Assembly (NCBI RefSeq): GCF_001561955.1
Contig: NZ_CP014223.1
Coordinates: 2,604,001-2,668,000, forward strand
Origin: Anaerotignum propionicum DSM 1682
Lineage (GTDB): Bacteria > Bacillota > Clostridia > Lachnospirales > Anaerotignaceae
Length of the DNA stretch: 64,000 bases
Direction: 5' to 3'
Shown here: piece by piece, positions 44,277 to 51,661 of the stretch
Numbering within the stretch: the first letter of the stretch is position 1
Layout: the number at the start of each line of letters is the position of its first letter
The notes under the pieces: generated by a model
Database searches by the model: none
What the model was told of the DNA's origin: nothing
The model's input: only the letters and a program-made list of their open reading frames with translations
Position numbers and translations under genes: made by a program

Positions 44277-44840
44277 TTATAATTCTAGAAAGTTTTTCAT
44301 AATTTCACTGCCGTACTGAGATAAAATGGACTCTGGGTGAAACTGCAAACCATAAATCTGCTTATCCTTCACCTTTACCGCCATAACCTCCCCATCAACC
44401 TCCCCAAGAATCTCCAGGGTTTCAGGTATTGTGCTCCGTTGTGCCACAAGAGAATGATATCTTGCCGCTTTTATTCTCTTTGGTAAATTCTCGAAAATGG
44501 GTGCAGAATTGTCTATTTCAATTTCGCTTTGTTTACCATGCATCAGCCTGTTTGCATGAACGATTTTTGCACCATAAACCTCACAAATTGCCTGATGCCC
44601 TAAACACACCCCCAAAATCTTATACTGATTCCCAAGCTTTTGAATGACCGCTTCACTGATTCCCGCTTCATGGGGGTAGCAAGGTCCAGGTGAAATAATA
44701 ATGCTATTCGGATGAAGCTGGTCAATCTCCTCGGGAGTGATGCTGTCATTTCTAAACACCCTTATATCATCATCAAACTGATATGCGAGATGTACCAGAT
44801 TGTATGTAAAGCTATCAAAATTATCAATTACCACAATCAT
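44277..44840 (-). CDS. trpG: Anthranilate synthase, glutamine amidotransferase subunit
   Basis: A 187-residue class I glutaminase that supplies ammonia to TrpE. The catalytic Cys is in GVCLGHQAICE, with ISPGPCYPHEAG and the His-Glu pair in GLQFHPESIL. It overlaps trpE by 4 bases. In some bacteria the same protein also serves aminodeoxychorismate synthase (PabA); its position within trp favours TrpG. Confidence 0.95.
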   Translation of the reverse strand: MIVVIDNFDSFTYNLVHLAYQFDDDIRVFRNDSITPEEIDQLHPNSIIISPGPCYPHEAGISEAVIQKLGNQYKILGVCLGHQAICEVYGAKIVHANRLMHGKQSEIEIDNSAPIFENLPKRIKAARYHSLVAQRSTIPETLEILGEVDGEVMAVKVKDKQIYGLQFHPESILSQYGSEIMKNFLEL

Positions 44841-46300
44841 AGGTCATTTGCCTCCTTTGCGTTTATAATGGCGTTTATGACTGCCTTAGCTTTGTTCTCA
44901 CTCTCCAAATATTCGGATTCACCCACGCTGTCCGCCACAATGCCGCCCCCTGCCTGAACAAAAACCTTGTTGTTTTTTTTCACTGCCATACGAATGGCAA
45001 TGCAAGTATCCAAGTTCCCTGTAAAATCAATGTATCCCAATGCCCCCCCATAAATCCCTCTGGGGCATCGTTCCGTTTCCTCAATGATCTCGCAAGCTCT
45101 CACCTTTGGTGCACCGGAAAGGGTTCCTGCGGGAAGAATTGCCTTGACTGCATCGTAAGCATCTAGCCCCTCTCTCAGTTCTCCATTCACTTCAGAACAA
45201 ATGTGCATGATTTTTGAATATTTTATGACCTTCATATATTCAGCAACAGAAACCGTTAAGGGCTTTGCTATCCTACCAATATCGTTCCTCGCCAAATCCA
45301 CCAGCATATTGTGCTCAGAAAGCTCTTTTTCATCTGCCATCAACTCTTTTTCAAAAGCTGTATCCTCTTCCTCTGTCAACCCCCTTGGTCTCGACCCTGC
45401 AATGGGGAAGGTGGAAATCTTTCCATCCCGAAGCTTTACAAGTGTCTCGGGGGAGGCAGAAAGTATCTGGGTATTATCACATTGCATAAACACCATGTAA
45501 GGTGATGGGTTTGTGGTTCTAAGCACTCGATAGGCATTGAGTAAACTGTCGTTGTAATCCGTTTCAAAACGCCTTGAGATAACTGCCTGAAAAATATCTC
45601 CATCGTAGATATATTCTTTCACCCGTTCCACAGCCTGACAAAATTCCTCTTTCGTAAAATTGCAAGTGAAATGGGGCACGCTTTTTGTAGTCTCTCTTTC
45701 TGTAGGCATCTGATTTGTTATAAACGCTGAGAGATTTTCTATCTCCGATATTGCCTCACCATAGTTTTCTAAAACCTGATCTGTTTTCATGTTCACAATA
45801 ATTTGTATTTTTTGCTTCAAGTGGTCATAGGCAATGACCTTATCAAAAAGCATAAAATCATAATCGTCTATTTCATCTTTGGAAATATCCAATGTTGGTT
45901 CACAATAACCAATCACGGAATAGGCAAAATATCCAACCAAGCCGCCTGTAAAAGGAGGCATATCAGGCAGCTTTGGCGCTTTATATTGCTTCATTAGCTT
46001 CCTAAGTGCCTCAAAAGGCTCCTCTCCAATTAGTTTTCGCTCTCCGTTTTCTTCTACCACCACCGCGCCATTCCTGCAGGTAATACGCATAATGGGATTA
46101 AAACCAAGAAAGGAATATCTGCCCCACTTTTCCCCTCCCTCTATGCTTTCCAGAAGAAAATATCGGTGATGATGCTTGGAAATTCTTCTTAACAAAGAAA
46201 TCGGTGTGATCACATCAGCGTAAATCTCCTTTGCAATGGGTATCATTTCATATTTTTCTGCCAGCTTGCTAATTGTTTCTGCGTTTGGTTTCATGCTCAT
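44837..46300 (-). CDS. trpE: Anthranilate synthase component I
   Basis: A 487-residue chorismate-binding enzyme, producing anthranilate with TrpG. The N-terminal regulatory domain includes the LLESIEGGEKWGRYSFLG tryptophan-binding segment; the catalytic domain has IAGSRPRG, GDIFQAVISRRFE, LVDLARNDIGR, and GTLSGAPKVRACEIIEE. I chose the ATG at 46300 (MSMKPNAE), seven bases after AAAGGAG; longer frames run into the T-box leader. Probably feedback-inhibited by tryptophan, as usual. Confidence 0.96.
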   Translation of the reverse strand: MSMKPNAETISKLAEKYEMIPIAKEIYADVITPISLLRRISKHHHRYFLLESIEGGEKWGRYSFLGFNPIMRITCRNGAVVVEENGERKLIGEEPFEALRKLMKQYKAPKLPDMPPFTGGLVGYFAYSVIGYCEPTLDISKDEIDDYDFMLFDKVIAYDHLKQKIQIIVNMKTDQVLENYGEAISEIENLSAFITNQMPTERETTKSVPHFTCNFTKEEFCQAVERVKEYIYDGDIFQAVISRRFETDYNDSLLNAYRVLRTTNPSPYMVFMQCDNTQILSASPETLVKLRDGKISTFPIAGSRPRGLTEEEDTAFEKELMADEKELSEHNMLVDLARNDIGRIAKPLTVSVAEYMKVIKYSKIMHICSEVNGELREGLDAYDAVKAILPAGTLSGAPKVRACEIIEETERCPRGIYGGALGYIDFTGNLDTCIAIRMAVKKNNKVFVQAGGGIVADSVGESEYLESENKAKAVINAIINAKEANDL

Positions 46301-46329
46301 AATGGCGCTCCTTTCGATTTTTGGTAATA

Positions 46330-46613
46330 AAAAAAGCCTTTGCCCCTTAACCAAGGGACAAAAGCTTATAGCCTCTGCGATACCACCCAAATTACCTGTA
46401 TTAAAAAAATACAGATCACTCATTTTATGTACAAACATACACACCCCACTGATAACGGACAGGGTTCCCGTCGGACATTACTTTCGCCTAAGCGATTTCT
46501 TTCCGCCCTCACAAGTCCATTCGGAACAACAACACTGCCGCTTCACACCATCCAACGACTCTCTGAAAGTGATTTGTTATGCCTACTCTTCTTGTTCTAC
46601 GGTTTCAATTTTT
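46330..46613 (-). promoter_or_regulatory. Tryptophan T-box riboswitch controlling the trp operon
   Basis: On the minus strand a leader of about 280 bases precedes trpE. It has the T-box core GGGTGGTATCGC (46377-46388), which base pairs with the tRNA acceptor end. The specifier region contains GAATGGAC with a TGG (Trp) codon at 46517-46519 (CCA on the plus strand). An intrinsic terminator (46330-46368; a long GC-containing stem followed by TTTTTTT) overlaps the antiterminator. Uncharged tRNA-Trp should stabilise antitermination and turn the operon on. Confidence 0.95.
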
Positions 46614-49276: not shown

Positions 49277-49316
49277 AAAAAAAGGATTATTCCAATAAGA
49301 AGAATAATCCTTTTTC
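49277..49316. terminator. Bidirectional terminator between MocR and CDF genes
   Basis: A 14-bp stem AAAAAGGATTATTC/GAATAATCCTTTTT with a small loop, running into T tracts on both strands, between convergent genes. Confidence 0.88.
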
Positions 49317-49317
49317 T

Positions 49318-50235
49318 CTATTCCTGCCCTACCAAATCTTCCTCTGCTGGGTTCACATGCACCATACAATGCTTAACTTCTTGAAAATTATTTTCAATTG
49401 CTTCATGTACTTGCTCTGCAATGGTATGAGCCTCGCTTAATGTCATATGTCTGTTGGCGGCAATTTCCACATCTACATAGATTCTGGCGCCAAATAAGCG
49501 GGTTTGCATTTGGTCGATGCCCGTTACGCCTTCTTGGGAAAGAATAATGTCACGCATGCGTTCCACAGTCTCATTGTCACAGGCAGTATCCAGCATTTTA
49601 TTAATAGCATCCATAAAAATATCATAAGCTGCCTTCACAATAAAAACACAGATAATGACGCTTGCCAAAGGGTCACATATAGGATAGCCTAATCTTGCAC
49701 CGATAATACCAACCATACTCCCTATGGAGGACATAGCATCAGAGCGATGATGCCATGCATCTGCCATCAAAGCGCCTGAATTCACCTTGTTTGCCGCAGC
49801 TCTGGTATACCAATACATACCTTCCTTCACAACGATGGATACAATTGCCGCAATCAAAGCCAATATTCCCGGCATTGCCAAGTTCAACTCATTGGCATGA
49901 ATGATTTTCAGAACACCTTCATAACCAATGACAATCCCTGTTGCACATAAAATGCCCGCTAGAATCAATGCCGCAACGCATTCAATCCTCTCATGCCCAT
50001 ATTGATGATGCTCATCTGACTCCTTGGCTGATAATTTGTATCCTATCATGACAACAATGGTACTAAGTACATCTGACGCAGAATGAATACCGTCAGAAAT
50101 CATGGCGCCAGAACTGGCGATCACACCTGCTGCCACCTTGCCAACGGACAAAATAATATTTGCTATCATGGATTTTGCGGATACGCTCATTACAATTTTC
50201 TCATTTTCTTCAGCATTGCTTTTCTCTGCTTCCAA
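49318..50235 (-). CDS. Cation diffusion facilitator (CDF) metal exporter
   Basis: A 305-residue CDF transporter (CzcD-like) with six membrane helices. It shows the HxxxD metal-site pattern twice: ISDGIHSASDVLS in helix 2 and ADAWHHRSDAMSS in helix 5, then a cytoplasmic domain from about residue 205 (ITGIDQMQTRLFGARIYVDVEIAANRHMTLSEAH) that senses metal. CDF proteins export Zn, Co, Ni, Fe or Mn in exchange for protons. The NiCo riboswitch upstream suggests Co, Ni or Fe. I chose a TTG at 50235 because GGAGGG lies seven bases before it; an in-frame ATG five codons earlier is the alternative. Confidence 0.92.
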   Translation of the reverse strand: MEAEKSNAEENEKIVMSVSAKSMIANIILSVGKVAAGVIASSGAMISDGIHSASDVLSTIVVMIGYKLSAKESDEHHQYGHERIECVAALILAGILCATGIVIGYEGVLKIIHANELNLAMPGILALIAAIVSIVVKEGMYWYTRAAANKVNSGALMADAWHHRSDAMSSIGSMVGIIGARLGYPICDPLASVIICVFIVKAAYDIFMDAINKMLDTACDNETVERMRDIILSQEGVTGIDQMQTRLFGARIYVDVEIAANRHMTLSEAHTIAEQVHEAIENNFQEVKHCMVHVNPAEEDLVGQE

Positions 50236-50297
50236 AATAAAACCCTCCATTTTCAATTCTATTTTATTCTATCCAAATGTAGGCGAGAAAATAATAT

Positions 50298-50340
50298 AAA
50301 AAACGCCCACAAGGAACATATTACTGTCCCGCAGGCGTTT
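50298..50340 (-). terminator. Riboswitch-controlled terminator before CDF gene
   Basis: On the minus strand AAACGCC (50334-50340) pairs with GGGCGTT and runs into TTTTTT (about 50298-50303). It overlaps the 3' part of the aptamer, as expected for a metal-controlled antitermination switch. It also closes any read-through from dnaJ. Confidence 0.82.
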
Positions 50341-50395
50341 ATCTGCTGCTGCTTGCCCGGCCACATGGCTATTATGCCATTGCCTGATCAGTTCT
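50321..50395 (-). ncRNA. NiCo (czcD) riboswitch aptamer
   Basis: The minus strand carries the pattern of the known czcD/NiCo aptamer. It runs from AACTGA (50389-50393), through CAGGCAATGGC and a hairpin, GCCGGGC and a GCAGCAGAT segment, to TGCGGGACAGT (about 50323-50333). The first and last pieces (ACTG and CAGT) pair as the outer stem; the GGCAATG, CCGGGC and GGGACAG elements match my recollection of the family. The class is known upstream of CDF exporters in Clostridia and responds to Co2+/Ni2+, later also argued to sense Fe2+. With metal the terminator would not form, allowing exporter expression. Confidence 0.85.
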
Positions 50396-50399
50396 TAAC

Positions 50400-50428
50400 A
50401 TTCTAATATAAGAAACTGTTTTTTTCAA
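50400..50428 (-). promoter_or_regulatory. Promoter of the CDF transcript and riboswitch
   Basis: TTGAAA (50423-50428), a 17-base spacer, and TAGAAT (50400-50405) on the minus strand, directly before the aptamer. This separates the exporter from the dnaK-dnaJ operon. Confidence 0.78.
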
Positions 50429-50458: not shown

Positions 50459-51616
50459 TTACTCCTTAAACAGATCTTTCATTTTTTCTGAAAAAGATTT
50501 TTTTTCTTCGGAGGCACTCTTACTTTCATTGGTATTTACAGCCTCATCTTTATAAAACTGACGCAACAAATCTTTCTGTTTCTCATTCAAATCTATAGGA
50601 ATCTGCACCTTCAAAGTTACAACCTGGTTTCCACGAACCTTGGGATTTCTTAAATTGGGGACACCAACACCCCTTAAAGTCACTACTGTTTCCGGTTGTG
50701 TTCCAGGCTTAACGCTATATTTCTGCTCACCGTCAATGGTTTTGATTGTGATTTCGCCACCTAACGCCGCCTGTACAAAGGTAATGGGCACATCGCAATA
50801 CACATCAAATCCCTTTCTGATAAACATAGGGTCTGGCTGTACATAAACGGTTACCAGTAAATCGCCGTAGCCACCGCCATTTTCACCAATTTCCCCTTTG
50901 TTTGCCAAACGAATGGTCTGACCGTTATCGATGCCCTTGGGAATGTTCACTTCATATTTCTTATTCTTCTTCACCTTACCTGTACCGCGGCAAGTGGAAC
51001 ATGGATCTTTAATAATCTTCCCGGTACCTTGACATTGGCTGCAAGTACGCACTGAGGTAACCGAACCAAACATGGACTGTTGAACAAATCTCTCCTGTCC
51101 TGTGCCATTGCATTTCGGGCAGCTTTCTGCATGGGTACCAGTCTTTGCTCCAGTTCCATGGCAAGTTTCACATTCATCGTATATACTTACGGAAATTTCC
51201 TTTGTGCAGCCAAATGCCGCCTCTGCAAAGCTAAGCTGAATATTTACATTTATATCATTCCCACGTCTTGGGCCGGTTCTGCGGGTGCTTCCGCTAAATC
51301 CACCAAAGCCGAACATGCTGCCGAAAATATCGCCCAAATCTCCCATATCAAACCCTTGGCCATAAAATCCACCGCCTGCACCGCCCTGTTCAAAAGCAGA
51401 ATGGCCAAACTGGTCATATTGCGCTCTTTTTTGAGAATCGCTCAGAACTTCATAGGCTTCATTGACTTCTTTAAACTTTGCCTCAGCCTCTTTATCTCCG
51501 GGGTTTTGGTCAGGATGATATTTCACTGCCATTTTACGATAAGCCTTTTTTAGCTCTGCGTCAGAAGCGCCTTTGCCTACCCCCAGTATTTCATAATAAT
51601 CTCTTTTCTCTGCCAA
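50459..51616 (-). CDS. dnaJ: Chaperone protein DnaJ
   Basis: A 385-residue Hsp40, type I. The J domain (1-70, [35 protein letters not shown]) has the HPD motif, followed by a Gly/Phe-rich region, four CxxCxGxG zinc-finger repeats (about 145-205), and the C-terminal substrate-binding beta domains. It stimulates DnaK ATPase. I chose TTG at 51616 (LAEKRDYY), which has GGTGAGGAAG upstream; a GTG four codons before it is the other option. It follows dnaK by 86 bases. Confidence 0.96.
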
Positions 51617-51661
51617 CTTCCTCACCACCTTATTCCTTCAAGGTCTATTTACAGCAAAAGC

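Follow-up and report, generated by a model that had tools for sequence, protein, structure and literature searches.

A NiCo (czcD) riboswitch with an overlapping terminator between dnaJ and the only CDF exporter gene of Anaerotignum propionicum DSM 1682

The window analysed here, a stretch of 64,000 nucleotides from the 3.12-Mb genome of Anaerotignum propionicum DSM 1682, carries on its minus strand dnaJ (50459..51628) and, downstream of it on the same strand, a gene for a CDF metal exporter of 305 amino acids (49318..50235), which starts with TTG and has the Shine-Dalgarno sequence GGAGGG (50243..50248, minus strand) 7 nt before the start. An earlier note on this DNA had placed a metal-responsive RNA between the two genes, and its promoter, aptamer and terminator do lie between position 50459, where dnaJ stops, and the CDF start at 50235; dnaJ is the upstream neighbour and stands outside the switch. 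Behind the CDF stop a second intrinsic terminator (49278..49315, minus strand; AAAAAGGATTATTC...GGAATAATCCTTTTTTT) was recognized by inspection, and we therefore regard the CDF gene as a monocistronic unit.

The protein is a member of the CDF family, as had been claimed: it contains the domains Cation_efflux (158.1 bits) and ZT_dimer (82.9 bits) and the A-site quartet of TM2 and TM5, which in the alignment with YiiP structures reads H51/D55-H162/D166 (HD-HD). Its best general NCBIfam match is TIGR01297 (233.8 bits), and among the NCBIfam equivalogs every cut-off was missed, that of FieF/YiiP with 145.2 versus 420 bits. The best named relative is a protein from A. neopropionicum (79%). Since the gene is the sole CDF gene of the genome, a riboswitch in front of it would govern the whole CDF capacity of the cell.

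Upstream of this gene the covariance model of the NiCo (czcD) family, RF02683, matches at positions 50401-50322 of the minus strand with 52.3 bits, as compared to a cut-off of 37 (cmscan); the alignment is full length (model positions 1-96 of 96), and the E-value is 4.4e-9 for the 64-kb window searched with 4227 Rfam families. The significance of the aptamer is settled by this E-value: the element is a NiCo (czcD) riboswitch aptamer, far beyond chance, and an ordinary example of an already known riboswitch class. The family had been recognized in the earlier note from the motifs CAGGCAATG, GCCGGGC, GGGACAG and ACTG/CAGT, all of which are found at their place, and a minus-strand hit with the Rfam NiCo model, which the note had named as the check, is what the search returned. 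The genome contains this one NiCo copy. Folding the window RNA by itself gave weak free-energy z-scores (-1.65 for the whole RNA, -0.01 for the aptamer), which speak neither for nor against the element. When all Rfam families were searched, two reached their gathering score in the window, NiCo and a T-box. The T-box leader (RF00230) lies at 46608-46351 on the minus strand (121.5 bits), and the open reading frame downstream of it (region 44837-46444) looks like a gene for anthranilate synthase component I (trpE).

The covariance-model alignment places the aptamer at 50322..50401, of which 50392-50323 (minus strand) form the core when the unpaired 5' tail of the model is excluded. Helix P1 consists of ACUG (50392-50389) and CAGU (50326-50323) together with the pair C50386-G50328. 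P2 (50359..50384) contains an internal loop and is built from GGC (50384-50382) with GCC (50361-50359) and from AUGGC (50380-50376) with GCCAU (50369-50365). It is followed by the first conserved GGG (50356..50358). P3 (50348..50356) is minimal, with the 2 base pairs G50356-C50348 and C50355-G50349 closing a 5-nt loop; it has 1-3 base pairs in the genus (one in locus L032) and 3-6 in other relatives, and with only 2 base pairs the window RNA may bind with lower affinity or less cooperatively than the members of the class that have been studied. P4 (50331..50346) pairs GCAGAU (50346-50341) with GCCUGC (50336-50331) with one A.C mismatch, and the second conserved GGG (50328..50330) is at the same time part of the terminator stem. 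Both GGG runs are intact in the window. The first is kept in 31 of 32 aligned relatives, locus L021 having AGG instead, and the second is invariant in all 32 aligned sequences. By motif, we take the first run to correspond to G45-G47 and the second to G87-G88, the metal-binding guanosines of the RNA whose structure was solved with Co(II). A role of the conserved G runs in metal binding is documented for the class (PMC7689651).

Helices P1-P4 are maintained by compensatory change. Among 32 sequences of the same order, the pairs were formed in 91.4% of cells, and 13 of the 22 pairs were changed on both sides, among them 2 pairs of P1 (93.8% of cells paired), 6 of the 9 pairs of P2 and 4 of the 6 pairs of P4 (94.7% of cells paired). 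Cells with two-sided changes numbered 66, as compared to 19.7 +/- 3.4 after shuffling, and none of 500 shuffles reached 66. The shuffle control ignores the relatedness of the 32 sequences; a slid control, which keeps it, let pairing fall to 23-43% when the partner was moved by 1-3 columns.

That the unit has its own promoter, as had been proposed, is borne out by conservation. The site (50400..50428, minus strand) consists of a -35 box TTGAAA (50428-50423), a 17-nt spacer and a -10 box TAGAAT (50405-50400). It agrees with the consensus at 10 of 12 positions, which on its own is not above chance, 3 such sites being found versus 4.9 expected in shuffles. The -10 region TATATTAgAAT recurs, however, in all five genus members compared, and TATATTAGAAT/TATATTAAAAT with a TTGxxx box 17-18 nt upstream is kept in 5 of 5. 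The end of the -10 box is only 7 nt away from P1, and transcription would start at about 50393.

The aptamer runs into an intrinsic terminator (50298..50340, minus strand), the expression platform, with a stem 50340-50325/50318-50301 interrupted by a 2-nt bulge and with a U-tract at 50303-50298. This terminator overlaps the 3' strand of P4, the second GGG and the beginning of the 3' strand of P1, and the hairpin 50340-50301, which runs into the U-tract, has a free energy of -20.4 kcal/mol; a terminator that shares bases with the aptamer had thus been described correctly. The hairpin at 50340-50298 is absent from the list of a generic terminator scan of the window, probably because of the bulge in its stem. 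Per-locus folding showed GGGAC/P4 to be paired in a downstream terminator hairpin in 47 of 50 NiCo loci, the exceptions being L022 and L029, where the script was halted by a run of T within the loop, and L036, which is a match below the cut-off. Per-locus folding was used since covariation of the terminator by alignment column (MAFFT alignment A1), which gave no signal above shuffles, had been scored with the structure derived from the window and was uninformative; the positions of the bulge probably differ between species.

Since bases are shared, aptamer and terminator exclude each other. The whole RNA folds with -33.6 kcal/mol when the terminator is formed and with -20.1 kcal/mol when the 3' arm of the terminator is lacking, the best fold in the latter case containing P1, P2, P3 and P4. 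Because the terminator fold is the more stable one, termination would be the default, and the metal would have to take effect on the growing transcript while the 3' arm is still missing; with the terminator fold ahead by about 13 kcal/mol in the energy model, switching would be kinetic and dependent on the metal being present during transcription.

We propose that the element is very probably a transcriptional ON riboswitch of the NiCo class, which controls the CDF exporter by metal-driven anti-termination. From its start RNA polymerase would transcribe the aptamer before the rest. If metal is lacking, the 3' half of P4 and GGGACA would be captured by UGUUCC...GGGCGUU, the hairpin would form and transcription would stop at the U-tract. 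A divalent metal bound at the junction of the G runs would stabilize P1 and P4, so that these bases are held, the terminator is blocked and polymerase reads through to the exporter gene; the exporter, once made, would pump the metal out and the switch would turn off again. For the class it has been described that without metal a terminator prevents formation of the full-length mRNA and that metal promotes read-through (PMC7689651). The relief of termination by metal, already suggested in the earlier note, is in line with this mechanism and with the anatomy of the shared bases.

Promoter, aptamer, terminator, exporter and the position behind dnaJ are conserved in the genus. A NiCo match was found in 8 of 8 genus genomes, six of them above the cut-off, and the order dnaJ-NiCo-CDF in five loci of the genus and in five other loci of the family. 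In 48 of 50 NiCo loci a CDF homologue is located directly downstream; the exceptions are L006, with a different open reading frame, and L019, where the CDF gene follows about 1 kb further on. Left out of this count is L040, which was rejected as a NiCo locus because the match is below the cut-off and a false positive in a coding region. The open reading frame downstream of the riboswitch in L006 (G001:C62:38294-38399) does not encode a CDF protein; by eye its start resembles a P-type cation ATPase.

Could the aptamer have decayed and no longer switch, the element being a plain terminator of dnaJ or of a constitutive leader? Its 52.3 bits are below the scores of many relatives (up to 83.8), P3 is short, and two genus members stay under the gathering score; yet the core nucleotides, P1-P4 and the terminator overlap are kept in the genus while the loops vary, and we consider decay highly improbable. 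A different proposal adds to anti-termination at the exporter rather than opposing it: the terminator of the riboswitch could also end the mRNA of the dnaJ operon, the metal then coupling heat-shock transcription to the exporter via read-through. The dnaJ stop and the -35 box are separated by 30 nt (50458-50429), and no terminator was found in this gap, unlike in 7 of 8 dnaJ-adjacent relatives, where a terminator-like hairpin (a weak one in the case of L035) separates dnaJ from the riboswitch. These hairpins were called by loose criteria, however, and the arrangement in the window is not conserved in relatives, so that we rate such a coupling as possible, its chance being somewhat short of even.

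As to the metal, the original work on the class from 2015 reportedly named Co/Ni as ligand. In Clostridium, induction was obtained in that work with Co/Ni, and not with Mn or Zn (PMC7689651). In later measurements under buffered conditions the affinities of NiCo RNA are 120 nM for Co, 61 nM for Ni, 93 nM for Zn, 400 nM for Fe and 11 uM for Mn, and when these values are compared with estimated metal levels of the cell only Fe(II) and Mn(II) would be able to bind (PMC7689651). A NiCo-controlled exporter from Listeria confers resistance to Fe(II) (PMC7689651), and a review of 2024 lists the class under Fe2+ (PMC11477304). In three genomes of the family (G017 and G249 from one genus, G270 from another), each with one CDF match, we found an intact NiCo riboswitch 47-82 nt upstream of a CDF gene with the quartet ND-DD: L027 (G017:C1:72944-73023, CDF 73066-74031), L145/L176 (G249:C44) and L150/L178 (G270:C78). 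This quartet marks the Mn clade of bacterial CDF proteins (PMC5703985), but the A-site predicts selectivity poorly (PMC5703985), and for this reason the ND-DD exporters behind NiCo are a hint and not a proof of what the ligand is. As a hint they weaken a pure Ni/Co reading.

It is from these data that one may argue that Fe(II), or Fe and Mn, is the physiological ligand, that Co and Ni are only toxic mimics, and that the exporter is a safety valve for iron and manganese. No cobalamin riboswitch was found in the window genome at E <= 0.001, which fits; since there is also only one CDF gene, cobalt handling in the organism may be limited. Against it stand the induction by Co/Ni in Clostridium and the HD-HD site of the window protein, which is shared by exporters of several metals and is typical of clades that transport Zn, the A-site being in either case a poor guide. 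We hold the arguments for and against an Fe/Mn ligand to be evenly balanced. For the window, then, Fe(II) or Co(II)/Ni(II), or both, and perhaps also Mn(II) come into question as ligand, between which the sequence does not choose; "Co/Ni, possibly Fe", as the earlier note had put it, agrees with the state of the field, less so if it is read as Ni/Co alone. The occurrence of the same RNA class in related hosts, with HD-HD exporters in some and ND-DD exporters in others, offers a natural comparison for the disputed ligand (Co/Ni, Fe, Mn).

Many relatives differ from the window by an upstream hairpin, P0. Of 91 distinct NiCo leaders, 46 have two near-invariant boxes, (CTCT)TTGCACTGC and ACAGTACAA, directly on the 5' side of P1, 43 have neither box and 2 only one of them. 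P0 lies 29-60 nt upstream of the first CAG of the aptamer (e.g., in L022, L027, L038, L058, L071 and L088). The boxes pair at 7 of 8 positions, with a C.A mismatch; the loop between them differs widely in length and often folds as a hairpin. In L009 the boxes are replaced by a variant that pairs completely, TTGTATTG/TAGTATAA. Of these boxes the Rfam model RF02683 includes only the second (3') one, unpaired. Of the 10 matches that the P0 pattern gave in a scan of 196 genomes, 9 were at NiCo loci and one was a chance match in a coding gene, and no other Rfam family matched the P0 region; the idea that the boxes are an element of their own or a promoter was therefore rejected. No description of P0 was found in the reviews through which the literature on the class was consulted, and novelty is not claimed. 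P0 is absent from the genus of the window; in the window the -10 box abuts the aptamer directly and leaves no room for a ACAGUACAA/P0 leader. A more tentative view, which we find rather doubtful, is that NiCo RNAs are sensors of Fe(II)/Mn(II), that the exporter behind them was swapped from HD-HD (genus of the window) to ND-DD (G017, G249 and G270), and that P0 is an unrecognized tuning module.

The class with which the window RNA is to be compared is NiCo (czcD), RF02683 (Furukawa et al. 2015), with the crystal structure of an Erysipelotrichaceae RNA under PDB 4RUM. The window RNA shares with it the four-way junction of P1-P4, the two GGG runs, a terminator overlapping the aptamer and a CDF gene downstream; it differs by its 2-bp P3 and by the -10 box in the place of the leader. 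With the NiCo-CDF loci of the same order (e.g., L022, L038 and L056-L129) it has the exporter family and the RNA core in common and, in part, the position behind dnaJ, whereas many of those loci have P0 and a few control CDF proteins of the Mn type ND-DD. The exporter itself resembles the CDF transporters FieF/YiiP, CzcD and MamB/MamM in having the Cation_efflux and ZT_dimer domains; unlike YiiP, whose A-site is DD-HD, it has an HD-HD site.
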